NCBI RefSeq assembly: GCF_000442255.1
Contig: NZ_KE557273.1
Coordinates: 614,662 to 678,661, forward strand
DNA length: 64,000 nucleotides
Source: Salipiger mucosus DSM 16094
Lineage (GTDB): Bacteria > Pseudomonadota > Alphaproteobacteria > Rhodobacterales > Rhodobacteraceae
Direction of reading: 5' to 3'
Made by a program: the position numbers and the translations under genes. Below the pieces are notes generated by a model that saw nothing but the letters and a program-made list of their open reading frames with translations, did no database searches and had not been told where the DNA came from. This document shows positions 5,135 through 63,383 of the stretch, piece after piece. The first letter of the stretch is position 1, and every line of letters begins with the position of its first letter.

Positions 5135-5142
5135 GCGCTCAG
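5131..5142. terminator. possible bidirectional hairpin between convergent genes
   Basis: CTGAGCGCTCAG is a perfect 12-bp palindrome that holds the RND stop (5132-5134) and the SDR stop (5139-5141, minus strand). It lacks a T-run, so terminator function is tentative. Confidence 0.3.
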
Positions 5143-5876
5143 AGCGTGAGGCCGCCGTTGGCGTGGATGCTCTGCCCGGTGACGTAGCCCGCGGGCGCCG
5201 AGAGCAGGAAACGCGCCAGCGCGGCGACCTCGTCGCGCTGGCCGACGCGCGCCATGGGGATGCCGGCGGTGACCTGCTCCCACTGCGCCGGGGTCAGCGA
5301 CGAGGGCGTGCCCGGCTCCTTCTCGATGAAACCCGGCACCACCGCGTTCACCGTGATCCCGCGCGGCGCGAGGTTGGCCGCGATCACGCGCACCTGCGCC
5401 TCGAGCGCCGCCTTGGCGGGGGCCGTGGGCAGGTAGCTGTGGGTCTTGGCCCTGTGCGCCCCGAAGGCGCTGACGCAGACGATGCGCCCGCGCCGGTCCT
5501 CGAGCCGCGGCGAGAGCATCGCGCAGAGCCGGTGAAAGGCCACCGGCATGGCCGCCAGCGCCGTGGCCAGCGGCTCGTGCGGGGTGTCGTCGATCTTGCC
5601 CAGCTTGGCGTAGCCCGCGGCGAAGGTCAGCCCCGTGAGCGGCCCCGCCTGCTGTCCGGCCCAGTCCTCGACCGCCGCGAAGAGGCCCGCGTCCTCGGTC
5701 CGCCCGAGGCAGGTCTCGACCTCGGCGCCCTCGACCCGGCAGGCCTCGGCCACGCCGGCGAGCCGCTCTGCGTTCGAGCCGGTGTGCAGCAGCAGCGAGA
5801 CGCCGGGCCCGGCCAGCTGCCGCGCCAGCGCGGCGCCGATGCCCGATCCCGAACCGATGATGACATGGCGTTCCAC
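5139..5876 (-). CDS. SDR family protein lacking the canonical catalytic Tyr
   Basis: This protein of about 245 residues has a Rossmann fold of the short-chain dehydrogenase/reductase family. The cofactor loop GSGSGIG sits at the N-terminus, and the C-terminal part has NAVVPGFI and GYVTGQSIHANGG, typical of classical SDRs. The active-site segment departs from YxxxK: the Lys that precedes AALE is preceded by PTAPA, so Thr occupies the Tyr position, although a Tyr lies three residues earlier (SYLPTAPAK). It may be catalytically altered. I prefer GTG at 5876, because AGGAG lies 7 bp upstream; the TTG at 5882 is too close to it. The gene lies 25 bp behind the GntR gene on the same strand, so the two form an operon. 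Substrate unknown. Confidence 0.75.
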   Translation of the reverse strand: MERHVIIGSGSGIGAALARQLAGPGVSLLLHTGSNAERLAGVAEACRVEGAEVETCLGRTEDAGLFAAVEDWAGQQAGPLTGLTFAAGYAKLGKIDDTPHEPLATALAAMPVAFHRLCAMLSPRLEDRRGRIVCVSAFGAHRAKTHSYLPTAPAKAALEAQVRVIAANLAPRGITVNAVVPGFIEKEPGTPSSLTPAQWEQVTAGIPMARVGQRDEVAALARFLLSAPAGYVTGQSIHANGGLTL

Positions 5877-5901
5877 GGGCAATCTCCTCGCGTGTCTGTG
5901 G

Positions 5902-6597
5902 TCAGGCCGAGGACAGGGTGTGAACGTGGCCGTAGGCGGCCTTGATCGCGGCGACGATGTCCTCGTTGCGGTGCAGGATATGCTCGCGCATCGCCTCGGT
6001 CGCCGCCTCCCTGTCGCGCCGCCGCACCGCCTCGAGGATCTCGAGATGCTGGCGCTGCGTCGTCTCGCGCCGGCCGTCCATGGCGATCCAGCGCACCAGG
6101 TGGATGCGGTCGTTGAGGTTCGCCATGGTCCTGCGCAGCACCTCGTTCCCGGCCAGCCGCGCCAGCCCGTCGTGAAAGCCGATGTCCAGCTCGATCAGCC
6201 GGTCGACCGAGGCATCGGGCGATTCCGCCATGCTCTCGCGCAGGAACGCGTCCAGCGCGTCGAGCCCGTCCTCGGTGGCGCGGTCGCAGGCCAGCCGCAC
6301 CAGCGAGCATTCGATCTCGGTGCGCGCCTCGAAGAGGTCGCGGATCTTGGCGGTCTCGAGGTCCGGCACGGAAAAGCCGCGCCCGCGGTCCTCCAGCAGC
6401 CCCTCGGCCACGAGCCGGTTCAGCGCCTCGCGCAGGGGCGTGCGGCTGATGCTCAACTCCCCGGCAAGCACCACCTCGTTGATCTTCTGGTTGGGCGTGA
6501 AGCCGAAGCGCAGCAACCGGTCGCGCAGCATCCGGTAGGCCCGCTGCGCCGAGGATGCGGTGCGGCCGTCGGGTCTGGCATCGCTGCGTTCGGCCAT
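5902..6597 (-). CDS. GntR family regulator, FadR/FCD subfamily (module A regulator)
   Basis: This is a 231-residue repressor or activator. The N-terminal winged HTH (about 15-80) carries the GntR signature ELSISRTPLREALNRLVAEGLL. The all-helical FCD ligand domain (about 95-220) has the metal/carboxylate-binding pattern with the D..FH motif (LDIGFHDGLARLAGN) and late His residues. The ATG at 6597 is preceded by GGAAGGAGC, a strong RBS. It diverges from the AspDH-AcnX operon across a region with a TTGTATACAA operator (6715-6724). The same operator recurs at 10206-10227 and 14851-14872, both inside module A, so this protein is the best candidate to control all three promoters. FCD regulators usually bind a carboxylate substrate or intermediate of the pathway. 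Confidence 0.87.
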   Translation of the reverse strand: MAERSDARPDGRTASSAQRAYRMLRDRLLRFGFTPNQKINEVVLAGELSISRTPLREALNRLVAEGLLEDRGRGFSVPDLETAKIRDLFEARTEIECSLVRLACDRATEDGLDALDAFLRESMAESPDASVDRLIELDIGFHDGLARLAGNEVLRRTMANLNDRIHLVRWIAMDGRRETTQRQHLEILEAVRRRDREAATEAMREHILHRNEDIVAAIKAAYGHVHTLSSA

Positions 6598-6714
6598 TTT
6601 GCGCTCCTTCCGGTCAAGACATCCGGCAACCTACCCGGTGGCGCGATTCCGCGTCAACGCGATGCTGCATCGCGGCGGCTGCAGCGCGGCAGGCGATCAC
6701 CCTTGCGCCGTTAC

Positions 6715-6736
6715 TTGTATACAAATACGAATACAG
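6715..6736. promoter_or_regulatory. predicted GntR operator, copy 1
   Basis: TTGTATACAA (6715-6724) is a perfect palindrome fitting the TNGTNNNACNA type bound by FCD-GntR proteins. The core GTATACA (6717-6723) is followed by GAATACA at 6729-6735, exactly 12 bp later. It lies 24-45 bp before the AspDH start and opposite the GntR gene, so it can autoregulate. Copies 2 and 3 have the same 12-bp geometry. Confidence 0.7.
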
Positions 6737-6760
6737 AGAAGGCATCAAGGGGGTTTGGGC

Positions 6761-7570
6761 ATGACGGCAATCGTTCTGGGCGGCTTCGGCAACGTGGGCC
6801 AGCAGATCGCGGCGCGGCTGGCCGAGACCGGCGACACCCGCATCGAGATCGTGGCCATCGCGGCGCGCGACCACGACAAGGCCCGCAAGGCGGCGGCGAA
6901 GCTGGGCCTCGACGTGCCGGTGATCGACGCGGCCGAGGCGCCGGACCACGACGCGGTGCTCGTGGAATGCGCCACCTACGAGGGCTTCCGCGACGTGGTC
7001 GAGCCCACGCTGCGCGCGGGCGGTCATGTCATCGCCATCAGCGTCGGCGCGCTGGGCGCGAACCTCGACCTGATCGACCTCACCGAGCAATCGGGCGCCA
7101 CGCTGCAGATCGCCGGCGGCACGCTGCCCGGGCTCGACATCCTGCGCGCCGCGCGCGAGGGCGAGATCCGCTCGGTGCGGCTCACCTCGCATATCCATCC
7201 CGCCTCGCTGGCCAAGGAGCCCTACATCCACGACAACGGCATCGACCTCGGCCCCGCCGACACCACGCCGGTGCCGATCTTCGAGGGCTCCGCGCGCGAG
7301 GCCGCGCGGCATTTCCCGCGCCATTTCAACGTGGCGGTGACGCTGGGGCTGGCGGGGATCGGGCTGGACGCGACCGAGGTGCGCATCCGCGCCGACGGCA
7401 CGCTGCCCGGCGCGCGCCACACGCTCGCGGTGGACTCCGACGCGGTGCAGCTCGAGATGCACTCGCAGAACTTCCCCTCGCCGCGCAACAACCGCACCAG
7501 CCGGATCGTCTCGCAAAGCATCCTCGCCGCGCTGCGCCGTCTCGACGGCGGGCTGCAGGTGGGCAGCTGA
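6761..7570 (+). CDS. aspartate dehydrogenase-like NAD(P)-dependent enzyme
   Basis: This 269-residue protein matches the usual length of the L-aspartate dehydrogenase (NadX/DUF108) family. Those enzymes interconvert aspartate and iminoaspartate with NAD(P) and ammonia. It has an N-terminal nucleotide fold with GGFGNVGQQIA (about 7-17), the family's SVGALGA segment in mid-protein, and a C-terminal half with FPRHFNVAVTLGLAGIG and NFPSPRNNRTSRI. It is the first gene of an operon with AcnX (stop and next start 2 bp apart). There is no NadA or NadB nearby, so a role in NAD synthesis is unlikely. A catabolic amino- or imino-dicarboxylate substrate fits the context better. The ATG at 6761 directly follows the operator region. 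Confidence 0.8.
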   Translation: MTAIVLGGFGNVGQQIAARLAETGDTRIEIVAIAARDHDKARKAAAKLGLDVPVIDAAEAPDHDAVLVECATYEGFRDVVEPTLRAGGHVIAISVGALGANLDLIDLTEQSGATLQIAGGTLPGLDILRAAREGEIRSVRLTSHIHPASLAKEPYIHDNGIDLGPADTTPVPIFEGSAREAARHFPRHFNVAVTLGLAGIGLDATEVRIRADGTLPGARHTLAVDSDAVQLEMHSQNFPSPRNNRTSRIVSQSILAALRRLDGGLQVGS

Positions 7571-7572
7571 CC

Positions 7573-8838
7573 ATGCACCTGAGCGAGCGCGACCGCGCCC
7601 TGCTGGACGGCGCCGAGGGCGAAGCCGCACGACAGGCCATGGCCGCGCTCGTGCAACTGGCCGAGGCCTACGACGCGCCCGACATGGTCGACATCGGCTA
7701 TGCCCATGTCCACGCGGGCATGGCGCTCTACAAGGGCGACGTCGAACTGATCGAGAGCGTCGCGGGGCAGGGCGCGCGCATGGCGGTGCCGGTCTCGACC
7801 AACATCGCGAATGCCGACATGGGCGACTGGGCCTCGACCGGCGCGCCGGACAGCCTCGGGAAGCTGCAGAAGCGCGCCGAGGCCGCCCACCGCGCCATGG
7901 GCAGCGCGACCAGCTTCACCTGCACGCCCTACTGGGCGGGGCACTGGCCGACCTGGAACATGCACATCGCCTCGATCGAGAGCGGCGTGACGGTCTTTGC
8001 CAACTCGGTGCTGGGCGCGCGGTCGAACCGCGACGGCTTCTTCGCGACCTATGCCGGGATCACCGGGCGCTACCCGCGCTTCGGTCTGCACCTCGACGAG
8101 AACCGCCGCCCGACGCATCGCGTGCAGGTCACCGCGCGCCCGCGCGGAACGGCGGATTTCACCGCTTTGGGCTATGCCGTGGGGCGGGCCGTCACCAACG
8201 GCGTGCCGCTGATCGCGGGGCTGGACCGGCGCCCCGACCTCGACGAGCTGGACGCGCTGGGCGTCGGCATGGCGACCTCGGGCGGCGTCGCGATGTTCGT
8301 GATCCCGGGCGTCACGCCGCCCTTCGGCCCCGAGGCCGACGGCGCGGGCCTGCCAGAGGCCGAGGTGGACGAGGGCGCGCTCGCCGGCATCTTCGGCGAG
8401 TTCAGCACCGGCGACGAGACCGGCTTCGACCTGGTGCACCTGGGCTGCCCGCATGCCTCCTTCGAGGAGATGAAGCACTACGCCCGCCTGCTCGAGGGCC
8501 GCCGCGTGGCCGATGGTGTCGAGGTCTGGATCACCACCAACCGCGTCGTGCGCCAGATGGCGCGCGAGGCCGGGCTGCTCGCGCCCATGCTGGCGGCGGG
8601 GGCGAAGGTGGTTTCGGACACCTGCCCGATTTCGTGCCATTTCGCCTGCACCTGCTCGCCCGACCCGGCGCTCGGGGTCGAGCCGCCGAAGATCCGCACG
8701 ATCCTCGTCGATTCCGCCAAGCAGGCGCATTACGTCCGCGACATGATCCAGTGCCCGACGTTGCTGACCACAAGCGAGCTTGCGGTCGAGTCGGCCTGCA
8801 CCGGGCGCTTCCATCCCCGGCCGCGCCGCAATGACTGA
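7573..8838 (+). CDS. aconitase X catalytic (large) subunit
   Basis: This 421-residue Fe-S lyase of the AcnX branch of the aconitase superfamily performs dehydration. Characterised members act on cis-3-hydroxy-L-proline or mevalonate 5-phosphate. Visible signatures are YAHVHAGMALYKGD near the N-terminus, VPVSTNIANAD, and the Cys-rich segment SDTCPISCHFACTC (about 353-366) expected to ligate the cluster. The small subunit is encoded separately and overlaps by 8 bp, which makes this the two-subunit type. The partner genes (AspDH, TctCBA, PrpD) match neither the hydroxyproline nor the mevalonate pathway, so the substrate may be a different hydroxy acid. Confidence 0.88.
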   Translation: MHLSERDRALLDGAEGEAARQAMAALVQLAEAYDAPDMVDIGYAHVHAGMALYKGDVELIESVAGQGARMAVPVSTNIANADMGDWASTGAPDSLGKLQKRAEAAHRAMGSATSFTCTPYWAGHWPTWNMHIASIESGVTVFANSVLGARSNRDGFFATYAGITGRYPRFGLHLDENRRPTHRVQVTARPRGTADFTALGYAVGRAVTNGVPLIAGLDRRPDLDELDALGVGMATSGGVAMFVIPGVTPPFGPEADGAGLPEAEVDEGALAGIFGEFSTGDETGFDLVHLGCPHASFEEMKHYARLLEGRRVADGVEVWITTNRVVRQMAREAGLLAPMLAAGAKVVSDTCPISCHFACTCSPDPALGVEPPKIRTILVDSAKQAHYVRDMIQCPTLLTTSELAVESACTGRFHPRPRRND

Positions 8839-9253
8839 GGGCAGCCGCTGGAGCGCGCGGGCGCTGGTCCGCGGCCTGGCCGAGGGGCCGGCCATGGTCT
8901 CGGGCACCGCACTGTCGTTCCTTGGCGATCTCGACATCCGCACCGGCCGCGTCGTGGGCGCGTCGAGCGATCTTGCCGGCCGCGTGGTCGCGGGCCGGGT
9001 GCTGGTGCTGCCCGAAACGCGCGGCTCTGCCGGGGCCTGGCGGTTTCTCTACCAGCTGAAGGTGCACGGCACGCACCCGGCGGCCTTGGTGCTGCGCACG
9101 CTTCCCGATCCCTCCGTGGTGCAGGGGGCGATCCTCTCCGAGGTGCCGGTGGTGATGCCGTCCGACGCAGGCTTCTGGGACGCCATACGCGACGGCGAGA
9201 TCCTGCGGGTGGACGGCGATGCGGCCTGCGTGGCGCAGAACTCGAACGGGTAG
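8831..9253 (+). CDS. aconitase X small (swivelling) subunit
   Basis: This 140-residue protein corresponds to the swivelling beta-barrel domain that closes the AcnX active site. The start segment ALVRGLAEGPAMVSGTALSFLGDLD and the Gly-rich GRVLVLPETRGSAGAWRFLYQL are typical; Ser/Gly of the latter contact substrate in the family. The ATG at 8831 lies inside the large-subunit gene (8-bp overlap ATGACTGA), implying translational coupling and 1:1 assembly. A later open stretch upstream in this frame is antisense to nothing useful and lacks the family N-terminus, so it was excluded. Confidence 0.85.
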   Translation: MTEGSRWSARALVRGLAEGPAMVSGTALSFLGDLDIRTGRVVGASSDLAGRVVAGRVLVLPETRGSAGAWRFLYQLKVHGTHPAALVLRTLPDPSVVQGAILSEVPVVMPSDAGFWDAIRDGEILRVDGDAACVAQNSNG

Positions 9254-9267
9254 TGCCGGCCCTCGGC

Positions 9268-10143
9268 TCAAGCCTCGAACAGCCAGGCGCCGCGTCCCAG
9301 TGCCGGGTCGAAGGGCAGGCGCCAGGCCTCGCCGACGCTCTCGGCCCCAAGCCGCGCCGCCAGCGCCGCCGGGTCGGCCACCCCGATGCGCAGCGCGACG
9401 AAGCAGGGCCGCCCGGGCTCGACCGCGACGCCGGCCAGCGCCTCGGCCTCCGGCTCGGGCAGCACCTCGACCGCGCCCTGGTCGAGCGGCACCCGGAAGC
9501 CCGGTCCGAACGGCTCGGCCGGGCGCCCCAGGAAGCGCGCGAAGCGGTCCGCCGCCTCGGCCGGATCGGGCGCCGAGACCACCACCGCCCGCAGCGCCCG
9601 CGCGGCGTTCTCGTGCGCCGTCCAGCGCGGCTGCCACATGGCCTCGGGGGCGTGATGCGTCAGGATCTGCACGCGCCCCTCGGGCATCGCCCCGGCCTGA
9701 AGCCGCGCCACCGTGAAGGCCGCCGTGGCGCTGCCGCCCTCGGTCTCGACCTCGCGCGAGAAATGCACCAGCGGGCGCATGTCGAACCCCGCCTCCGCCA
9801 GCTCGGCGTGCCGCGCCTCGGCGTCGGCCACGCCGAAGGCCGCGAGATGCAGCCCCGCACGCCGGTCGAGCGCGGCGCGGAACTCCAGCCCGATGGGCGT
9901 GTCGGCGGTGTGCACGAGGAACTCGAGATACCCCTCGGGCAGCATCACGCAGACGTTTCCGGTGCCGGTCAGCTTCGGCGCGCCGCCCTCGGGGTCGGGC
10001 ACGACTTGCGCCGAGAAGGGCGTCACCGTGAAGCCCATGCCCGTCAGCGCCGCGCGCGCCGCCTCGGGGTCGGGCACGAAATGCCCGGTGTGATCCAGGC
10101 AGACCCCGCCGGGCGCGGGACTGTTGGCGTTCGATATGCTCAT
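9268..10143 (-). CDS. VOC / glyoxalase-like domain protein
   Basis: This 291-residue protein has two vicinal-oxygen-chelate halves. The first (about 12-150) starts CLDHTGHFVPDPEAARAAL with the metal-type His; the second (about 165-285) starts RALRAVVVSAPDPAEAADRF. Such proteins bind a divalent metal and act as lyases, isomerases or dioxygenases on small acids. The ATG at 10143 has GATGAAG just upstream, and upstream in-frame residues do not resemble the family. It is transcribed away from tctC, with operator copy 2 between them, so it belongs to the module A regulon. Reaction unknown. Confidence 0.75.
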   Translation of the reverse strand: MSISNANSPAPGGVCLDHTGHFVPDPEAARAALTGMGFTVTPFSAQVVPDPEGGAPKLTGTGNVCVMLPEGYLEFLVHTADTPIGLEFRAALDRRAGLHLAAFGVADAEARHAELAEAGFDMRPLVHFSREVETEGGSATAAFTVARLQAGAMPEGRVQILTHHAPEAMWQPRWTAHENAARALRAVVVSAPDPAEAADRFARFLGRPAEPFGPGFRVPLDQGAVEVLPEPEAEALAGVAVEPGRPCFVALRIGVADPAALAARLGAESVGEAWRLPFDPALGRGAWLFEA

Positions 10144-10205
10144 TTCTTCATCACCCCAAGGCCGCGCGCAGGAGACGCGGGAAAACCGTTGCAATCCGAA
10201 ATCCA

Positions 10206-10227
10206 TTGTATAACACTTTGTATACAA
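10206..10227. promoter_or_regulatory. predicted GntR operator, copy 2
   Basis: TTGTATACAA (10218-10227) repeats the perfect palindrome of copy 1. A degenerate copy TTGTATAACA begins at 10206, again exactly 12 bp away. It lies between the divergent VOC gene (start 10143) and the transporter gene (start 10322), placing both under one regulator. Confidence 0.7.
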
Positions 10228-10321
10228 CTTGCGAGGGGCCGCCACTCACGGACGGGAATCCGGCCCCGCGCCAACAAGACAGGTCAAGAGACCGCCATTG
10301 CAACAGGAGAGGTTCTTCCCC

Positions 10322-11308
10322 ATGACGATCCGGACCGGACTACGCAGCATCCTCGCCGGCGCCACGCTGGCCGCGACCGCCGCCTTCGGCGCGGCCGCGC
10401 AGGACTATCCCACCAAGGACATCACCCACATCATGCCCTGGAGCGCGGGCGGCGGCACCGACACGGTGATGCGCACCTTCCTGCAATACGCCGAGGAGCC
10501 GCTGGGCGTGGGCATCCGCACCCAGAATGTCACCGGCGCGCAGTCGGGCGTGGGCACGCTGCGGCTGATGAAGGCGCGGCCCGACGGCTACACCATCGGC
10601 TCGCTGACCTGGGACAGCATGATCACCGTGCCCTACTTCGATCTCGTGCCCGGCTACGACACCGGCGCGCTGAGCTACCTCGCCACGGTCACGCTCTATC
10701 CCACCGTGCTCGCGGTCAACGCCGACACCGGCTGGGAAACGCTCGACGACTTCATCGCCGCGGCCAACGAGGCCCCGGGCGAGATCGCGATCTCGAACTC
10801 GGGCATCGCCGGCATCTGGCACCTGCACGCGCTCGACATGGCCGACGCGCTGGACGTCGAGCTGAACCACGTGCCCTTCCCGAACGGCTCGGCCGAACAG
10901 CGCGAGGCGCTGCTCTCGGGCGAGAACGAGGCGGCCAGCGTCAGCTATGCCACCGTGGCCTCGGCGCACGAGGCGGGCGACGTCAACATCCTCGCCGTGA
11001 TGTCCAGCGAGCGCGACGTGAACCTGCCCGACACGCCGACCTTCACCGAACTGGGCTACGACGTGGTCTGGGGCGGCATGCGCGTGCTGGCGGTCCCCGC
11101 CGAGACCTCGGACGAGATCAAGGCGACGCTGACCGAGGGCTTCAAGGCCGCCTTCGACGACCCCGAGTTCCAGGAGATCGCCGACAAGCAGGGCATGAAC
11201 GCCTTCTGGATGGGCGCCGAGGAAACGCAGGCCTACGTCGACAAGACGCAGGAGCGCGCGATCTCGATGCTTTCCAAGCTCGAGGAAGAGGGCGTCATCA
11301 CCAAGTGA
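10322..11308 (+). CDS. tctC: tripartite tricarboxylate transporter substrate-binding protein
   Basis: This 328-residue periplasmic receptor of the TTT (Bug/TctC) family captures a carboxylate for the TctAB membrane complex. A Sec signal peptide ends near AFGAAA|QDYP (residue 26). The mature N-terminus has the family motif ITHIMPWSAGGGTDTVMR, followed by the NVTGAQSGVGTLRLMKARPDGYT loop. The RBS AGGAGAGG lies about 8 bp before the ATG. It is the first gene of tctCBA and is separated from tctB by a GC hairpin. TTT systems carry citrate, other di- and tricarboxylates and some aromatic acids; the specificity here is unknown. Confidence 0.9.
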   Translation: MTIRTGLRSILAGATLAATAAFGAAAQDYPTKDITHIMPWSAGGGTDTVMRTFLQYAEEPLGVGIRTQNVTGAQSGVGTLRLMKARPDGYTIGSLTWDSMITVPYFDLVPGYDTGALSYLATVTLYPTVLAVNADTGWETLDDFIAAANEAPGEIAISNSGIAGIWHLHALDMADALDVELNHVPFPNGSAEQREALLSGENEAASVSYATVASAHEAGDVNILAVMSSERDVNLPDTPTFTELGYDVVWGGMRVLAVPAETSDEIKATLTEGFKAAFDDPEFQEIADKQGMNAFWMGAEETQAYVDKTQERAISMLSKLEEEGVITK

Positions 11309-11334
11309 CGCCGCTCTCGCGGACCCGATGATCC

Positions 11335-11363
11335 GGCCCGGCCGCGCCCGTCGCGGCCGGGCC
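11335..11363 (+). terminator. 12-bp intercistronic hairpin after tctC
   Basis: GGCCCGGCCGCG (11335-11346) pairs perfectly with CGCGGCCGGGCC (11352-11363) around a 5-nt loop. No T-run follows and tctBA continue downstream, so it more likely stabilises the receptor mRNA or attenuates read-through than terminates fully. Confidence 0.65.
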
Positions 11364-11391
11364 TCTGCGCCCCAAGGGACCCCTTCGCACG

Positions 11392-11868
11392 ATGCCTCTC
11401 ACGATGACCCGACAGGCCTTATTCGCGCTCGCGCTGATCGTCTTCGACGGCTGGTATCTCTACCAGTCCTTCGACCTGCCGCGCCCCTTCGCCACCGGCG
11501 AGCCCGGCCCGGCCTTCTTCCCCTGGATCCTCGCCGCCGTGCTGGGCCTCGCTGCCTTTGCCGTGCTGGTGCAGGAGCTGTCGGGCCGCCCCGTGCCGGG
11601 CGAGGACACCGAGGGCGCGCGCGTCACTTGGCGCACCGTCGTGCTGATCGCGCTGACCGCGGGCTTTGCCTGGGCCTTCGAGCCGCTGGGCTACTGGGTC
11701 GCCACGGCGCTCTACACCTTCGCGGTGGCCTGGCTCTTCGAGCAGGAGCGCGCGGGCGCGCTCAAGGCCACGCTGACGGGCGCGATCATCGCCGCCGGGA
11801 TCACCGGGGCGGGCTGGCTCTTCTTCGTCACGCTCTTCGAGCTGTTCCTGCCGGAAGGGAATTTCTGA
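11392..11868 (+). CDS. tctB: tripartite tricarboxylate transporter small membrane subunit
   Basis: This 158-residue protein has four predicted membrane helices (about 8-24, 43-62, 85-103 and 128-150). It opens with ALFALALIVFDGWYLYQSF and GEPGPAFFPWILAAVLGL, both typical of TctB. It partners TctA in the inner membrane. Its stop and the tctA start are 1 bp apart. It is separated from tctC by the hairpin at 11335-11363, which should lower its expression below that of the receptor. Confidence 0.88.
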   Translation: MPLTMTRQALFALALIVFDGWYLYQSFDLPRPFATGEPGPAFFPWILAAVLGLAAFAVLVQELSGRPVPGEDTEGARVTWRTVVLIALTAGFAWAFEPLGYWVATALYTFAVAWLFEQERAGALKATLTGAIIAAGITGAGWLFFVTLFELFLPEGNF

Positions 11869-11869
11869 G

Positions 11870-13357
11870 ATGCTGGGCGACCTCTTCGGCGGCTTCGCCG
11901 CGCTCGCCAACCCCGAGACCTTTCTCTACCTCGTCGGCGGCTTCGTCATGGGGCTGGTCTTCGGCGCCATCCCCGGCCTGACCGCCACGCTGGCCATCGC
12001 GCTGCTGCTGCCCTTCACCTTCGCGATGGAGCTGACCAACGCGCTGGTCATGGTCATGGCGATCTTCATGTCGGGCATCTACGCGGGCTCGGTCACCGGC
12101 ATCATCGTCAACATCCCCGGCGCGGCCTCGGGCGCGATCACGACGATGGAAGGCCACGTCATGATGAAGCGCGGCCACGGCGCCAAGGCGCTGGGGCTCG
12201 ACGCGCTGGCCTCGTCGATCGGCGGGGTCGTCGGCGCGCTGGTGCTGATGTTCGTGGCCGTGCCCATGAGCCGGCTCGCGCTGCTCTTCCAGACGCCGGA
12301 CAAGTTCGCGCTGGTGTTTCTCGCCGTGGTCACCGTGGCCATCGTCGCGCGCGGCTCGATCTGGAAGAGCATCATCGCCGTGACGCTGGGGCTCATGGTC
12401 TCGACCGTGGGCTTCGACAACATGGTCGCCAAGGCGCGCTTCGTCTTCGGCAGCGCCGACCTGATCGAGGGCGTGCAGCTGCTGCCCGCCGTCATCGGCC
12501 TCTTCGCGGTCTGCGAGCTTCTGGTGCAGGCCGGCTCGCCGCCGCGCGGCGCGCTCGACGTGCCCGAGTTCAAGGTCACCCGCCGCGACTTCGTCCCGCG
12601 CTGGTCCGAGATCCGCGAGATCGGCTTCTGGACCTACGTCAAGAGCTCGGTCATCGGCGTGCTCGTGGGGATGCTGCCGGGCGGCGGCGCCTCGATGGCC
12701 TCCTTCGTGGCCTATGCCGAGGCCAAGCGCGTCTCGAAGAAGCCGCAGGAATACGGCGACGGCAGCCACGAGGGGCTCGCGGCCGCTGAATCCGCCAACA
12801 ACGCCATGTGCGGCGGGGCGGTGGTGCCGCTGCTGACGCTGGGCATCCCCGGCGACAGCGTGACCGCGATCATCTTCGGCGTGCTGCTCATCCACGGTCT
12901 GGTGCCGGGGCCGGGCCTGCTGACCAACGAGATGGCGACCATCGCGCCAATGTTCGCGGCGCTGCTGGTGGCGGCGACCTTCGTGTTCCTGTCGGTGATC
13001 CTCTTCGGGCCCTGGTACATCTGGCTCGCGCGGCTGAACCGGGGCGTGCTCTATGCCTTCATCGCCATGATCGCCATGGTCGGCACCTATGCCTCGACCT
13101 ACTCGGTCTTCCAGATGTGGGTGGCCTTCGCCATCGGCGGCATCGCCTTCGGGCTGCGGCTGCTGGGCTACCCGCTGGTGCCGATGCTCATGGGGATCAT
13201 CCTGGGCCCCTACATGGAGCTCTACATGCGCCGGGCGCTCATCACCGCGAACGGCGACCCGACGGTCTTCTTCGAGAGCCCGATCTCGCTGGCGCTCTAC
13301 GCGCTCACCGGCGTCTTCATCTACTTCCTGAGGATCCGGGCGCGGCCGGTCGCCTGA
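11870..13357 (+). CDS. tctA: tripartite tricarboxylate transporter large permease subunit
   Basis: This 495-residue, about 12-helix permease forms the transport path, driven by a cation gradient. Family landmarks are visible: FVMGLVFGAIPGLTATLAIALLLPFTF (about 25-50), the Gly-rich MLPGGGASMASFVAYAEAKR (about 265-285) and GIPGDSVTAIIFGVLLIHGL (about 325-345). The length is normal. It ends at a GC hairpin that also covers the end of the convergent PrpD gene. With tctC and tctB it forms a complete TTT system in the AcnX/PrpD locus, which points to a polycarboxylate substrate. Confidence 0.9.
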   Translation: MLGDLFGGFAALANPETFLYLVGGFVMGLVFGAIPGLTATLAIALLLPFTFAMELTNALVMVMAIFMSGIYAGSVTGIIVNIPGAASGAITTMEGHVMMKRGHGAKALGLDALASSIGGVVGALVLMFVAVPMSRLALLFQTPDKFALVFLAVVTVAIVARGSIWKSIIAVTLGLMVSTVGFDNMVAKARFVFGSADLIEGVQLLPAVIGLFAVCELLVQAGSPPRGALDVPEFKVTRRDFVPRWSEIREIGFWTYVKSSVIGVLVGMLPGGGASMASFVAYAEAKRVSKKPQEYGDGSHEGLAAAESANNAMCGGAVVPLLTLGIPGDSVTAIIFGVLLIHGLVPGPGLLTNEMATIAPMFAALLVAATFVFLSVILFGPWYIWLARLNRGVLYAFIAMIAMVGTYASTYSVFQMWVAFAIGGIAFGLRLLGYPLVPMLMGIILGPYMELYMRRALITANGDPTVFFESPISLALYALTGVFIYFLRIRARPVA

Positions 13358-13363
13358 CCGGCC
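13344..13363. terminator. hairpin between convergent tctA and MmgE/PrpD gene
   Basis: GGCCGGTC (13344-13351) and GACCGGCC (13356-13363) form a perfect 8-bp stem with a GCCT loop across the tctA stop codon. It sits between converging genes, so it may serve both; the T-run is absent. Confidence 0.45.
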
Positions 13364-13372
13364 CGCGCGCCC

Positions 13373-14764
13373 TCACTGGGTCTCGAACCGGGCGCCGACG
13401 CGCGCGGCGTAGTCGCTGACGTCGGGCGCCTCCCAGAGGCCCTGCGCCGCCGCCTCGAGACCCGCGACCTCAGCCGCCGGCAGCACCGCGCCGGCGAGAT
13501 CGCCGAACTTCGCGCTCAGCTCCTCGGGCGTCATCGGCGCCTCGGGGTAGCCGCGCGCAATGTCCATCCGGCGGCTGTGCACCTGCCCGTCGCGCGTCGT
13601 GATCTCGAGCTTCGTTGCATAGAAGTCGGGGAACAGCGGATCGAGCTCGGGATCGCTGGTCACGCTCACCCGGCCGCAGAGGTCGCGCAGCTCCGCGTCC
13701 TCCTCGCGCCGGTCGAAGAAGATGTCGGCGATCCGCAGCCGCCGGTTGGTCAACGCGACCGGCAGCACGTATTGCGCGCAGTGGCTCTTGAGCGGGTTGT
13801 CGTCGATGCAGTGGATGCCGTCGCGGGGAAAGCGCATCACGATGCGCTCGACCTGCGCGGGGCGCAGGTCGGTCTCGGCCACGATGTCGAAGAGCGCGTC
13901 CAGCGCCGGGTGCAGGAAGGCGACGCAGGAATAGGGCTTGATCGCCATTTCCATCACCCCGTCCCAGGCGGTGCCCAGATCGGCGACCAGCTTCTCGGGC
14001 GCGGGGCTGCGGCTGAAGGCGTGAAAGACCGTGTGGCCGTGGTCGAAGACCTCCGTCGGCCCGCCGAAGCCGCGCCCGGCCAGCATCGCGGCGGTCACGC
14101 CGTTGCGCGCGGCCATGCCCATCTGGAAGGGACGGGCGTTCTCGGTCGGATCGCTCTCCCAGGCCATCAGCCCCGAGGCCTGGCAGGCGGCCAGCCCGAA
14201 GGCCCGCACCACACGCGCCCGGTCCAGCCCCAGCAGGAAGCTGGCCGCCGCCGCCGCGCCGAAGGCCCCGCAGACCGCCGAGGGGTGGAACCCCAGCGCG
14301 TACTGCTCCGAGGGCCCCAGCGCGACCGACAGGCGGTATTCCACCTCGAGCCCAAGCGCCACGGCGGCGATCATGTCGCGCCCGCTGCGCCCCTCGGCCT
14401 CGCAGAGCGCCAGCGCCACCGGGATCATCACGGCGACAGGGTGCAGGATGCCCTCCGGGTGGTGGGGCTCGACGTCGCTGGCATAGCCCATCGTGCCGTT
14501 GGCCAGCACCGCCTGCACGACCGAGGTGCGAAAGCCCTGTCCGACCACCGAGCAGACCGCTTCGCCGCCCTGGTCGCGCACGAACTCCGAGATGATCCGC
14601 CCGGTCGAGAAGGCCGGGTTCCCGGCCGAGACCAGCGCCGCGGTGCCGTCGGTCACCAGCCGCCGCGTGGTCTCCCGCACCGCCTCGGGAAGGCTCTCGG
14701 GGCGGAACGAGGCGACGAAATCGGCAAGCGCCTCGGTCATCGGGGCCTGTGCGGGCGTGGTCAT
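13373..14764 (-). CDS. MmgE/PrpD family protein
   Basis: This 463-residue protein belongs to the family of 2-methylcitrate dehydratase (PrpD), cis-aconitate decarboxylase and iminodisuccinate epimerase, all acting on polycarboxylates. Typical features are an N-terminal helical domain (LADFVASFRPESLPEAV), SDVEPHHPEGILHPVAVMIPVALAL with the conserved His residues, SAVCGAFGAAAAASFLLGL and PYSCVAFLHPALDAL. I chose the ATG at 14764 because AAGGGA precedes it and upstream codons look non-coding. It is divergent from the CoA-transferase operon with operator copy 3 between them. PrpC and PrpB are absent, so this is not a methylcitrate cycle gene. Aconitate-like chemistry alongside AcnX and a TTT transporter is the likely theme. 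Confidence 0.85.
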   Translation of the reverse strand: MTTPAQAPMTEALADFVASFRPESLPEAVRETTRRLVTDGTAALVSAGNPAFSTGRIISEFVRDQGGEAVCSVVGQGFRTSVVQAVLANGTMGYASDVEPHHPEGILHPVAVMIPVALALCEAEGRSGRDMIAAVALGLEVEYRLSVALGPSEQYALGFHPSAVCGAFGAAAAASFLLGLDRARVVRAFGLAACQASGLMAWESDPTENARPFQMGMAARNGVTAAMLAGRGFGGPTEVFDHGHTVFHAFSRSPAPEKLVADLGTAWDGVMEMAIKPYSCVAFLHPALDALFDIVAETDLRPAQVERIVMRFPRDGIHCIDDNPLKSHCAQYVLPVALTNRRLRIADIFFDRREEDAELRDLCGRVSVTSDPELDPLFPDFYATKLEITTRDGQVHSRRMDIARGYPEAPMTPEELSAKFGDLAGAVLPAAEVAGLEAAAQGLWEAPDVSDYAARVGARFETQ

Positions 14765-14850
14765 GGCGGTGTCCCTTGCTGAGGTGAAACTGGCAAAGCG
14801 CGCGCCCCGGTCGCGACCGGGCAGTCCGCGCGGCATGCAGCAACTCTTGC

Positions 14851-14872
14851 CTGTATACAGCTCGGAATACAA
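14851..14872. promoter_or_regulatory. predicted GntR operator, copy 3
   Basis: CTGTATACAG (14851-14860) is a perfect palindrome matching eight of ten positions of copies 1 and 2. The core GTATACA (14853-14859) is followed by GAATACA at 14865-14871, a 12-bp step as in copy 1. It lies in the 253-bp divergent region (14765-15017) between PrpD and the CoA-transferase. The rest of that region is AT-richer (14905-14970) and probably holds the promoters, but I cannot assign -35/-10 boxes. Confidence 0.65.
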
Positions 14873-15017
14873 GTCTGCCGTGCCCCGCCCGCCGATTGGC
14901 CCGCGGCCCGCATCTATATCATTTCCGAATTCTCGGCGGGCGTATTAGCATAGTGGCCTATATTCCCACCCGCGCGCCCCGCGTCTACTCTCGCTGCAGC
15001 ACAGCAAGGAGACGATC

Positions 15018-16220
15018 ATGGGCGCGCTCGACGGCATCAGGGTTCTGAGCTTCAATCACTTCCTCTCCGGGCCCGCGGCGGCGCAGCACCTCGGCGACCT
15101 CGGGGCCGACGTGATCGCGGTCGAACCGCTCACCGGCGCCTTCCAGCGCAACTGGGCGGTGGGCAACCGCTTCGTGGACGACACCTCGGTCAACCACATG
15201 ACGACCGGGCGCAACAAGCGCTCCATCGCCGTGGACCTCAAGGCCCCCGAGGGCATCGCCGCGGTCAAGCGCCTGATCGCCAACGCCGACGTGGTGATGG
15301 AGAACTTCCGCCCCGGCACGCTCGACAAGCTGGGCCTCTCGGAAGAGGAAATGCGCCGGGTCAACCCCGCCATCATCTACGCCACCACCACCGGCTTTGG
15401 CGCCGACGGCCCCTATGCCAAGCGTCCGGGGCAGGACATCCTGCTGCAGGCCATGTCGGGCCTCGCCGCCCACACCGGCAGCATGGAGCACGGCCCCGTC
15501 GCCGTGGGCTCGGTCCCGATCGACCACCACGCCGCGGCGCTGACCGTGACCGGCATCGTCGCCGCGCTCTTCGAGCGCCAGCGCACCGGCAAGGCCCGCC
15601 GGGTCGAGGTGAACATGCTGCAGGCCGCGATGGACCTGCAGGGCGAGTCGATCACCGCCTGGATGAACGGCGCCGAGCACGACGGCCCCCGCGGCAGCGA
15701 CGGCATGGCCAACTGGTTCAGCCCCGCGCCCTACGGCATCTACGCCACCACCGACGGCTTCGTCATGATCTCGATGTCCAAGCCGGCCGATCTCGCCCGC
15801 GCGCTCGACCTGCCCGAGTTCCTCGAGTTCTCCGAGAAGGACGGCTTCGACCGCCGGAGCGAGGTCTCGCGCAAGGTGGGCGAGGGGATGGCCGCGCTCT
15901 CGACCGACCAGGCGCTCGAGAAGCTGGCGGCGCAGGGCGTCTGGCACGAGGTCGTGCAGGACTACGACGCGCTGCCCGCGAACCCGCAGGTCCGGCACCT
16001 GCAGGCCTTCACCGAGGCGAAGACGCAGGGAGGCTCGCCCATGGTCATGCTCTCGCACCCGGTGCGCTACGACGGCGTGGCGCCCGAGGTGCGGCTGACC
16101 CCGCAGCCGCTGGGCGGCCAGACCCGCGAGGTGCTCGCCGAGGCGGGCTTTGCCGACGACGAGATCGACACGCTGCTGGCGGCCGGGACCGTCGTGCAGA
16201 CCGACAGGATGCGCGGCTGA
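15018..16220 (+). CDS. class III (CaiB/BaiF) CoA-transferase
   Basis: This 400-residue enzyme moves CoA between carboxylic acids in the cytoplasm. The start GALDGIRVLSFNHFLSGPAAAQHLGDLGADVI is diagnostic, as are NKRSIAVDLK, VVMENFRPGTLDKLGL and ATTTGFGADGPYAKRPGQD. The Asp at about 140 in the last segment is the expected nucleophile. It leads a long operon (CoA-transferase, ACAD, two MaoC, two DapA, EthD-like, perhaps LysR), so it likely activates the imported acid by CoA transfer for desaturation and hydration. The RBS is AGGAG upstream of the ATG at 15018. The CoA donor is unknown. Confidence 0.9.
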   Translation: MGALDGIRVLSFNHFLSGPAAAQHLGDLGADVIAVEPLTGAFQRNWAVGNRFVDDTSVNHMTTGRNKRSIAVDLKAPEGIAAVKRLIANADVVMENFRPGTLDKLGLSEEEMRRVNPAIIYATTTGFGADGPYAKRPGQDILLQAMSGLAAHTGSMEHGPVAVGSVPIDHHAAALTVTGIVAALFERQRTGKARRVEVNMLQAAMDLQGESITAWMNGAEHDGPRGSDGMANWFSPAPYGIYATTDGFVMISMSKPADLARALDLPEFLEFSEKDGFDRRSEVSRKVGEGMAALSTDQALEKLAAQGVWHEVVQDYDALPANPQVRHLQAFTEAKTQGGSPMVMLSHPVRYDGVAPEVRLTPQPLGGQTREVLAEAGFADDEIDTLLAAGTVVQTDRMRG

Positions 16221-20523: not shown

Positions 20524-21456
20524 ATGCTCAACCTCAGGCAGCTCGAAATCCTCCGCGCCGTGGTGCAGTACCGCACCACCGTCGGCGCGGCGGAACGGCT
20601 GGGGATGTCGCAGCCCTCGATCTCGAACACCATCCGCCACATCGAGAGCGTGCTGGGCTTCCCGCTCTTCGAGCGGGTCAGCAACCGCCTCACGCCCACC
20701 GAGGAGGCGCTGATCCTCCTGGAGGAGTCCGAGCCGCTCTTCCTGCTGCGCGACGCGGTGAACCAGCGCGCGGCCGACCTGCGCATGGGCCGGATCGGCC
20801 GCATCCGCATCGCCTCGACGGCCGAGCTGTCCGAGGCCGTGCTGCCCCGCGTCATCGCGGACTACGCCACCGAGTACCCCGAGATCCAGATCTCGCTCGA
20901 GACCCGTCCGCTCGACAGCGTCCTGCAGGTCGTCGAGAACGGGCTCGCCGACGTGGCCTTCATCATCGCCGGCTACGAGCGGCAGGCGCTGGAATACGAG
21001 GTCATGGACGAGCTGCGCGCCGTCTGCCTCTGCTCCGCCGACGACCCGCTCGCGCAACTCGACCAGGTCACGCCGCGCGATCTCGACGCGCGGCAGATCG
21101 TCGGTCCGCAGGTCGCCAACCGCATCGGGCTTATCATCGCCGAGAGCTTCAGCGCCTCGGGCTACGACTACCGCCCCAGCGTCGAGACCCGCTTCATGAA
21201 CGCCGCCGCGCGCATTGTGCGCGACGGCTGGGGCGTCACGCTGGTCGACGAGCTCTCGGCCTTCACCGCGCTGCGCCCCGGCCTCGTGGTGCGTCCCTAC
21301 GCGCCGGAGCTGCGCTTCTCGCTCTCCGCGGCCACCTCGCGCGCCAAGGCGACCTCGCGCCAGACGCGGCGCTTCATCGACGCTTTCGCCGAGCGCGCCG
21401 CGCTGCGCATCGCCGAGGTCAGGGCCGCGACCCAGAAGGGCGGCGGGCCGGAGTGA
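20524..21456 (+). CDS. LysR family transcriptional regulator
   Basis: This 310-residue regulator has an N-terminal HTH (LNLRQLEILRAVVQYRTTVGAAERLGMSQPSIS, about 2-35) and a C-terminal periplasmic-binding-like effector domain (about 88-295). I prefer the ATG at 20524, which places LNLRQLEI at the start as in relatives; a TTG at 20488 overlapping the preceding stop is also possible. It follows the module A operon on the same strand and converges on the HpcH aldolase gene, overlapping its end by 38 bp. Unlike most LysR genes it has no divergent partner. Target and ligand unknown. Confidence 0.85.
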   Translation: MLNLRQLEILRAVVQYRTTVGAAERLGMSQPSISNTIRHIESVLGFPLFERVSNRLTPTEEALILLEESEPLFLLRDAVNQRAADLRMGRIGRIRIASTAELSEAVLPRVIADYATEYPEIQISLETRPLDSVLQVVENGLADVAFIIAGYERQALEYEVMDELRAVCLCSADDPLAQLDQVTPRDLDARQIVGPQVANRIGLIIAESFSASGYDYRPSVETRFMNAAARIVRDGWGVTLVDELSAFTALRPGLVVRPYAPELRFSLSAATSRAKATSRQTRRFIDAFAERAALRIAEVRAATQKGGGPE

Positions 21457-61367: not shown

Positions 61368-63383
61368 TCAGACCAGGTTGCGGGGGATGGTGACGTCCCA
61401 CTCCTGGTCGCGGACCTCGCGGTCCCCCTCCCAGGCCTGCATGCGGGCGGTGATGCGGAAGTTCGTCGTATCGCCGGTGAGCCGGGTCGTCGTGACGGTC
61501 TTCACCGACCAGTCGTCGCGCGCCATCTCGTGCACCCAGGTCACCTCGCCCTCGGCCGAGGTCGGATCGTCGGGCAGCACCGAGTAGCGCTCGAACCCCT
61601 CGGACGAATGGTAGAAATCCTGCGCCTTGATGCGCACGCCGCCCTCGTGGTCGCGCACCTCGACGGTGAGCCGCCCGGTGTCGCGATCCTCGCCCACGGT
61701 CCACTCCGCCTGCGGCGGCACCGAGACGGCAAGCTCCAGCGGTTCGGCCGCGCGGGGCGTGCCGAGATCGCGCACGGGTGTCTCCGTGCGGGCGCGCACC
61801 GGCAGGTCCAGTTCCGAGGATCCGGGCAGCACGGTCATGGTCACCGGCTCGGGCGTCGGCCAGGCGATGGGGAAATACCCGGTCGAGAGCGACAGCCGGA
61901 TGCGGTGCCCGGCCCGGAAGGTCTGCGCGACGTGCTTGAAGGGCACCTCGACGGTATAGACCTTGCCCGGCTCCAGCGGCGCCGGGTCCTCGTGGCCGTC
62001 GCGGTGCGTCAGGTTCAGCAGCCCGTAGCTCACCCGCGTCGCGGCACCGTCCGGCGCCACGTCCACCAGGCGCGCGGCGACCTGCGCGACGGGGCGGTCG
62101 ACCTTGACCGTCAGCGTCAGCCGCGCATCACCCGCGATCTCGAGGTCGGCCTCGAGCGGGGCGGTGTCGAAGGTCAGGCTGCCCGCGTCCTCGCGGCGCT
62201 GATCGCCCGGCTGGTCGCCCACATGCGCGTAGGAGCACCACTTGCCCGCGTGCTGGCCCACCCAGAGCGGCGAGCGGATTTCGAGCGCGGCATCATCGGC
62301 CGCCTTCGTGCCGCCAAGCTGCCCGTCCGCCCCCAGCGCATAGGCCGTGCGCGTGATGTTGGGCGAGGGCCACGCGGGCTCGGTGATCCAGCGGCCGTCG
62401 CGGCGTTCGTAGAAACCGCGCGGCTCGGCATGGTCCTGCATGAAGAGCCGCAGCGGCGGCTCGTCCGCGATGCCGGTGTCCTGCCCCTTGAGCCACTGGT
62501 CCCACCAGCGCGTCTCCTCGGTCAGCCAGTCGACGGCGGGGCCGGGCTCGCCCAGGTGCGGATACTTGTGCGACCAGGGGCCCACGATGCCCTTGACCGG
62601 CGAGCTCAGGTTCTCGACCAGCCGGAAGACCGAGCGGCAGTAGCCGTCGGCCCAGCCGCTGACGGCATAGACCGGCACCTCGATGTCGGCGAAATTCTCG
62701 CAGACCGAGCCGTGCTCCCAGAAGGCGTCGCGCGTCTGGTGGCGCAGCCATTTCTCCAGCCAGAGCCCGGAGCCGTCGAGCCGTTCCTCCCAGAGCGCGC
62801 GCCAGCGCTCGCCCACGTGCGCGGGATCGGGCGGCAGGGTGTTGATGCCGAACATGACCGAGGCCCAGGACAGCTGGTCGCAGAGCAGCGTGCCGCCCAT
62901 GTAGTGGATGTCGTCGGCGTAGCGGTCGTCGGTCGAGCAGATGGTCACCACGGCCTTGAGCGCGGGCGGCCGAAGCGCCGCGATCTGCAGACCGTTGAAG
63001 CCGCCCCAGGAGATGCCGACGATGCCAACGCCGCCGTCGCACCAGGCCTGCTCGGCGATCCAGGCGATCGCGTCGCAGCCGTCCTGAAGCTCGATCTCGG
63101 TATACTCGTCCTCCATGACGCCGTCGGACTCGCCCGTGCCGCGCAGGTCGACGCGCACGTAGGCATAGTCGCGCGCCGCCAGCCAGGGCGCGCGGGCGTG
63201 GTCGCGTTCGAGCGTCTTGTCGTTCTTGCGATAGGGGATGTACTCGAGGATCGCCGGAACCGGCCGCGTCTCGGCGTCCTCCGGCATCCAGATCCGCGCC
63301 GCGAGGCGGGTGCCGTCGGGCATCGGGATTTCGACGTGCTCGAGTTCCCGCACCGGGCGGGGCAGTTCGGTCTCGATCTTCAT
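61368..63383 (-). CDS. CocE/NonD family hydrolase (cocaine esterase / X-Pro dipeptidyl-peptidase type)
   Basis: This 671-residue serine hydrolase has an N-terminal alpha/beta domain with DLRGTGESDG (about 79-88), nucleophile Ser125 in GIVGISWGGFN, Tyr51 (IPYRKN) for the oxyanion hole, the likely acid Asp in SGWADGYC and His in GPWSHKYP. A C-terminal jelly-roll domain (LEADLEIAGDARLTLTVKVD) follows. It cleaves esters or amides such as acylated alkaloids or peptides; no signal peptide is seen, so it is cytosolic. The ATG at 63383 begins the conserved region; upstream codons do not fit. It converges on the SDR operon. Substrate unknown. Confidence 0.85.
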   Translation of the reverse strand: MKIETELPRPVRELEHVEIPMPDGTRLAARIWMPEDAETRPVPAILEYIPYRKNDKTLERDHARAPWLAARDYAYVRVDLRGTGESDGVMEDEYTEIELQDGCDAIAWIAEQAWCDGGVGIVGISWGGFNGLQIAALRPPALKAVVTICSTDDRYADDIHYMGGTLLCDQLSWASVMFGINTLPPDPAHVGERWRALWEERLDGSGLWLEKWLRHQTRDAFWEHGSVCENFADIEVPVYAVSGWADGYCRSVFRLVENLSSPVKGIVGPWSHKYPHLGEPGPAVDWLTEETRWWDQWLKGQDTGIADEPPLRLFMQDHAEPRGFYERRDGRWITEPAWPSPNITRTAYALGADGQLGGTKAADDAALEIRSPLWVGQHAGKWCSYAHVGDQPGDQRREDAGSLTFDTAPLEADLEIAGDARLTLTVKVDRPVAQVAARLVDVAPDGAATRVSYGLLNLTHRDGHEDPAPLEPGKVYTVEVPFKHVAQTFRAGHRIRLSLSTGYFPIAWPTPEPVTMTVLPGSSELDLPVRARTETPVRDLGTPRAAEPLELAVSVPPQAEWTVGEDRDTGRLTVEVRDHEGGVRIKAQDFYHSSEGFERYSVLPDDPTSAEGEVTWVHEMARDDWSVKTVTTTRLTGDTTNFRITARMQAWEGDREVRDQEWDVTIPRNLV

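Follow-up and report, generated by a model that had tools for sequence, protein, structure and literature searches.

The closest described relatives of the system analyzed here are taken from excerpts of three reports. Atu1419 of Agrobacterium fabrum, an FCD-GntR of the VanR group (PDB 6z74 and others), was co-crystallized with ATGTATACAT, in which an essential G is read by Arg45, and it represses its own and neighboring genes (PMC7797058). Suvorova et al. described in 2015, for 13 FadR-type groups, a weaker box lying 7-12 nt from the palindrome center on one or both sides, and a GT-to-AC distance of 2 nt is one of the two spacings in that survey (PMC4494728). In Escherichia coli, three dimers of NanR bind adjacent repeats cooperatively and are released by ligand (PMC8012715). 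Here, we analyzed a stretch of 64,000 nucleotides from Salipiger mucosus DSM 16094 (contig NZ_KE557273.1, positions 614,662 to 678,661; this whole stretch is called the window), which contains a gene for an FCD-GntR regulator, P0001, next to a set of uptake and breakdown genes. Three intergenic regions of this cluster hold a palindrome with a weaker box exactly 12 bp away, and these composites are very likely operators of P0001.

P0001 (231 aa; 5902..6597, minus strand) has the N-terminal GntR winged helix-turn-helix and C-terminal FCD domain of FadR-type proteins, both above their Pfam cut-offs, and it was the only match in the genome at E<=1e-30 (9 of 55 first-look candidates scored). Atu1419 is the best solved match to its DNA-binding domain, although 6z74 ranks sixth of eight solved matches by whole-protein E-value; R52, T53, and R56 of P0001 align with R45, T46, and R49 of Atu1419, if chain and paper numbering agree. 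The window sites are AT-rich palindromes with a GT...AC core (GT-to-AC distance 2 nt) upstream of the regulator's own gene and of the proposed target genes, comparable to the ATGTATACAT recognized by Atu1419. Atu1419 forms a tetramer able to loop between palindromes 190 bp apart and has other target genes, and the excerpted passages on it mention no companion box at 12 bp. Each intergenic region of the window has one exact core, not the two palindromes of the looping tetramer of the Atu1419/VanR group; looping from one window site to the next, over 3.5 and 4.6 kb, was also considered and rejected. The half-sites of the 2015 survey, as excerpted, differ from the boxes found here, which keep one exact step of 12 bp between unit centers and are joined by a unit at +24 in relatives. 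NanR is a GntR repressor, as P0001 is proposed to be, but it binds GGTATA direct repeats rather than phased palindromes, and it binds cooperatively by means of an N-terminal extension of 32 residues, while in P0001 the GntR domain match starts at residue 17. As for a NanR-like array, two units are seen here, and three in relatives whose GntRs are 37-46% identical.

Results

Composite sites in the window and in the genome

By direct reading of the window, TTGTATACAA palindromes are located at 6715-6724 and 10218-10227, and a CTGTATACAG palindrome at 14851-14860. Each is accompanied by a second box 12 bp off, namely GAATAC at 6729, GTATAA at 10208 (TTATAC on the opposite strand), and GAATAC at 14865. 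Pattern searches delimited site A (6715..6736, plus strand) between GntR and AspDH, site B (10206..10227, minus strand) between VOC and TctC, and site C (14851..14872, plus strand) between PrpD and a CoA-transferase gene; in all three cases the flanking genes are divergent. The core TGTATACA matched exactly three times in the window and was absent from 100 dinucleotide shuffles. GTATAC had four matches, the fourth of which, at 63100, lies outside the cluster. When the composite TGTATACA-N7-ATACA was searched with up to two mismatches, six rows were returned, corresponding to the three sites on both strands, and again none was found in 100 shuffles. An earlier note on this DNA had placed the palindromes only in the three divergent intergenic regions of the cluster, with a second half exactly 12 bp away at each, and both statements hold.

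The search was extended to all 30 contigs of the genome (5.69 Mb), where TGTATACA occurs at 10 places. Within one mismatch, four composites were found, all of them perfect: the three window sites and one at G000:C15:13360, that is, on another contig, C15. None of the remaining six cores reaches four of the five letters of the 12-bp box. Relaxing the search to two mismatches added a small number of unrelated matches, each of them single, and a reversed control pattern gave about as many.

The 12-bp step is conserved, and relatives carry a third unit

Seven exact cores, chosen regardless of any box, were available in loci encoding orthologous GntRs (65-72% identical; L045, L054, L055, L056, and L057). 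All seven have at least four of the five ATACA letters at step 12, compared with a mean of 0.23 and a maximum of 2 in 2000 shuffles of their flanks (single bases were shuffled in this and the following flank test). When the four sites of the S. mucosus genome were added, step 12 was found in 11/11, nine of them perfect, while any other step from 6 to 32 reached at most 2/11; the four own sites had been selected by the composite, and the unselected figure is 7/7. A weaker additional box, as described for GntR sites with a half-site, is therefore conserved over these orthologues. L058, with a 27% identical GntR and no core in 20.7 kb, was not taken as an orthologue, and L006 duplicates part of L045.

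More distant relatives were also inspected. Among 34 of them (the 36 genomes with a GntR match minus the window genome and G215), 28 loci with 37-46% identical GntRs were read; G087, G064, G186, G213, G043, and G138 are outside this count. An exact core was present in 25 of the 28. The box at step 12 accompanied 17 of these 25 cores (0.95 on average in shuffles, at most 5), and 12 of the 25 are followed at +24 by a complete TG-N4-CA unit (0.09 on average in shuffles, at most 2). No complete third unit at +24 was found at the three window sites or the seven orthologue sites. The third unit of the relatives suggests that dimers are phased along the DNA. A separate observation concerns genome G237, where two perfect TGTATACA octamers stand at an exact 12-bp step in three places (L085:1501, L086:1501, and L087:1501); no P0001 homologue was found in the loci fetched from this genome, and a fourth, imperfect pair lies inside an open frame in L083.

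Orthologous clusters and co-occurrence with the GntR

The gene cluster itself is seldom found: at E<=1e-120, 295 genomes of the family gave two matches to the large subunit of aconitase X, the window genome included. In G215, the cluster comprises SDR, GntR, PrpD, AspDH, AcnX, VOC, and TctCBA. All composites found in that genome within one mismatch (five rows, four places) lie in this cluster, in front of a thiamine-diphosphate (ThDP) enzyme gene, in front of GntR, between PrpD and AspDH, and between VOC and TctC. On the metagenome contig L057, a composite is positioned between AspDH and PrpD. The motif is thus present upstream in both orthologous clusters found, and its absence, which would have counted against the earlier note, was not observed. 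PrpD in the window is placed differently from its counterparts in G215 and L057, yet the gene starts beside a site in all three; the window protein is only 51% identical to the other two and may not be a strict orthologue. These data support AspDH-AcnX, VOC, and TctCBA (sites conserved in G215) as well as PrpD (G215 and L057) as predicted members of the regulon.

An exact composite was found in 11 of the 295 genomes, comprising 7/36 with a GntR match at E<=1e-30 and 4/259 without one (p=5e-5). The association persisted when the window genome was removed (p=3e-4) and when G237 was removed as well (p=1e-3); these are Fisher p values that ignore the relatedness of the genomes. A single FCD-GntR operator architecture with an exact 12-bp step, as first proposed in the earlier note, is hence co-conserved with this GntR across genomes. 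In a genome of the same genus as the window and without a GntR match at that threshold, a near-composite with one mismatch was noted at G088:C1:678698.

A fourth site lies upstream of a ThDP enzyme gene

The composite at C15:13360 is upstream of a gene for a 564-aa ThDP enzyme, which adjoins an Asp/Glu-racemase-family gene. The nearest solved relatives of the enzyme are BbmA and glyoxylate carboligase, and no NCBIfam model reached its cut-off among the 25 matches listed. The 17 kb surrounding this site gave no GntR homologue. In G215 and two Salipiger bermudensis genomes an 87-89% identical ThDP enzyme is encoded near the GntR orthologue with a core in front of each, and in Salipiger thiooxidans a 56% identical enzyme near the GntR orthologue likewise has a core in front.

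We then read 30 loci of the 50 ThDP matches, G186, G213, and G087 among them. Where a GntR was present in the locus, a core lay 29-91 bp upstream of the ThDP match in 20/20 cases, as an exact match in 19 and with a single mismatch in the other. Where it was absent, the core was found in 0/9 (p=1e-7 for the contrast, again ignoring the relatedness of the genomes). The thirtieth locus is that of the window genome itself, with core and box and the GntR on another contig. Because 17 of the 20 GntR-linked sites are intergenic sites already counted among the 25 cores of the relatives, this test adds the negative side and not twenty new sites. The two genes are divergent neighbors within 600 bp in 24 of the 28 genomes that hold both, the ThDP gene being the one most often found beside this type of GntR, and the racemase-family gene was present in 10 of the 13 larger loci compared.

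Two further loci deserve mention. At L076:1501 (G151), a composite precedes a frame that looks by eye like the ThDP enzyme but fell below the ThDP cut-off; the GntR of that genome is about 3 kb away. In S. thiooxidans (L054:1179-12230), a D-aminopeptidase gene, above the NCBIfam cut-off, stands beside the GntR orthologue and the ThDP gene, and five or six genes of this locus are co-directed in a row. This neighborhood hints at a D-amino-acid substrate.

Site C and the CoA-transferase operon

The class III CoA-transferase gene (15018..16220, plus strand; Pfam CoA_transf_3) is the first of an operon that is probably outside the regulon. At E<=1e-120, its only orthologues in the 295 genomes, besides the window genome, were found in G067 (86%) and G039 (77%); in both, the upstream 1.5 kb contains no TGTATACA, even with one mismatch allowed. 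Both possess a leader that aligns with 14914..15017 of the window (plus strand), the clearer match being that of G067; past the leader block the alignment is unreliable, and there the core falls in a gap. Since the site is missing from the orthologues, which instead have a separate leader in common with the window, PrpD is probably the gene served by site C. The conserved leader, with TTAGCATAGT..CCTATATTCC in G067, is perhaps the site of another regulator, and a LysR-like gene is located at ~20527-21456.

A regulon that includes the CoA-transferase operon, with site C acting in both directions, as the earlier note had drawn it, is in our view unlikely. It is consistent with the position of site C between two divergent genes and with the report, in the excerpts of the survey, that single divergon sites often serve both sides (PMC4494728). 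The two orthologues without a site, few as they are, and the failure to find a CoA-transferase homologue in the 20-kb G215 cluster argue against it. Of the members named in the earlier note, AspDH, AcnX, VOC, TctCBA, and PrpD are retained and the CoA-transferase operon is left without support; the ThDP composite on C15 had been missed.

Other genes of the cluster

Downstream of the GntR gene, in an operon-like arrangement, is an SDR oxidoreductase gene (5139..5882, minus strand; Pfam), a 71% identical counterpart of which neighbors the GntR gene in G215. On the other side of site A are genes for an aspartate-dehydrogenase-like protein, AspDH (6761..7570, plus strand; Pfam Asp_DH_C, below NCBIfam cut-offs), and for the large subunit (7573..8838, plus strand; Pfam AcnX) and swivel subunit (8831..9253, plus strand; Pfam AcnX_swivel_put) of aconitase X. 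A glyoxalase-like VOC protein (9268..10143, minus strand; Pfam Glyoxalase_3) and the TctC solute-binding protein (10322..11308, plus strand), TctB (11392..11868, plus strand), and TctA (11870..13357, plus strand), each named from its Pfam family, flank site B, and an MmgE/PrpD family protein (13373..14764, minus strand; Pfam MmgE_PrpD_N and _C) precedes site C. The nearest solved structures are cis-3-hydroxyproline dehydratase for AcnX, and IRG1/cis-aconitate decarboxylase and IDS-epimerase for PrpD. Because none of the ten window proteins reached the cut-off of any NCBIfam model, precise functions were not assigned to them; naming a substrate from solved-structure relatives was dropped on the same ground for these proteins and the ThDP enzyme.

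Discussion

The DNA itself shows the sites, how nearly exclusive they are within the genome, the 12-bp step, and the co-conservation with the GntR. We infer binding by the GntR from this conservation, and infer likewise repression, occupancy by two dimers, and release by a ligand. We consider it very likely that the three window sites and the C15 site are operators at which the FCD-GntR encoded at 5902-6597 would repress transcription until a ligand releases it. A GntR dimer would read the palindrome TGTATACA via its conserved SRTPxREAL recognition helix, and a second dimer, or else an extra subunit, would most likely read the weaker unit centered 12 bp away and so strengthen binding. The bound protein would block GntR-SDR, AspDH-AcnX, VOC, TctCBA, PrpD, and the distant ThDP enzyme, and a substrate-derived ligand would release the repressor. 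About 25 bp separate the end of site A from the AspDH start codon, and a repressor bound there would thus lie over the promoter or the start region; repression with ligand release is the most likely mode of control.

How many dimers occupy a site is less certain. A single dimer may bind at the palindrome only, with the second box serving as a half-site for an additional subunit or for the dimer in an alternative register. This reading, which we hold quite possible although not the better one, agrees with the weakness of the distal half of the second unit in the window and the orthologues (G in 7/11) and with the term half-sites that the 2015 survey, in the excerpts, gives to such boxes (PMC4494728). 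The third unit of the relatives, on the other hand, has both halves, and in G237, at places with no P0001 homologue alongside, two perfect octamers keep the 12-bp step. Because the third unit has both halves, we moderately favor two dimers on two units.

Whether P0001 is the protein that reads the sites must also be considered. Another FCD-GntR of the genome might do so, such as that of contig C9, just upstream of whose gene two TGTATACA cores are found (L071:4112 and 4164, 52 bp apart). These cores lack the 12-bp box, the C9 protein is 31% identical to P0001, and the composites of G215, Salipiger, and L057 stand beside orthologues of the window GntR (a comparison that took in some of the GntRs of the genome), so that we regard such a reader as very improbable. 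Still less credible is that the palindromes are chance occurrences or AT-rich promoter elements. TGTATACA is intergenic and does look like a -10 element, but no composite arose in 100 shuffles and the 12-bp step is conserved across genomes; a plain -10 element was rejected, and a sigma-70 consensus scan of the three intergenic regions found no sigma-70-like pair.

Several results weigh against the proposed control by P0001. The same sigma-70 consensus scan leaves "promoter" in these three regions an inferred term. The core alone is not diagnostic, given the two cores upstream of the C9 gene. The composite also occurs in 4/259 genomes without a GntR match, in one of which, G259 (L084:1501), it lies beside a different GntR-type gene; the group of regulators that goes with the composite is therefore wider than the P0001 orthologues. 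That gene product is 30% identical to the C9 GntR, and the gene is opposite an ABC-transporter-like frame. An exact composite is missing from 29 of the 36 GntR-positive genomes, mostly because the second box is degenerate, as judged from the loci read, and only 13 of the 20 GntR-linked ThDP sites hold four of the five box letters. Finally, G087, one of the nine ThDP loci without a GntR, has its GntR match on another contig and a ThDP gene without a core, which speaks against control in trans in that genome.

In literature searches, PMC7797058 was the only paper found on TGTATACA with GntR and PMC4494728 the only one on extra boxes. No paper was found on TTGTATACAA with GntR, none joining two or more of AcnX, aspartate dehydrogenase, and GntR, and none joining at least four of GntR, aspartate racemase, acetolactate synthase, Rhodobacteraceae, D-amino acid dehydrogenase, and TRAP transporter. 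Additional boxes next to GntR palindromes have been published before; what is added here is the regulon and the 12/24-bp phasing in the ThDP-linked group. The predicted regulon gains one member in trans, the ThDP enzyme, and loses one proposed member, the CoA-transferase operon.

More tentatively, a clade of FCD-GntR repressors might read a 12-bp phased array with one dimer per unit, made up of a perfect TGTATACA, a weaker unit at +12, and, in the 37-46% identical relatives, a TG-N4-CA unit at +24; its ancestral job would be an undescribed pathway based on the ThDP enzyme and the Asp/Glu-racemase-family protein. In S. mucosus, the operator would have stayed before the separated ThDP gene, and four promoters would share one control in trans. 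The control proposed for P0001 is in itself an ordinary kind of gene regulation, by which an uptake and breakdown cluster would be linked to an enzyme gene on another contig. It provides a predicted regulon for an uncharacterized catabolic set (AspDH-like protein, aconitase X, PrpD, Tct transporter, and ThDP enzyme), for which knowing the inducer would assist in naming the pathway. The role of extra GntR boxes becomes directly testable with the 12/24-bp array, and the ThDP site indicates that an operator can mark a regulon member that has become separated from its regulator.

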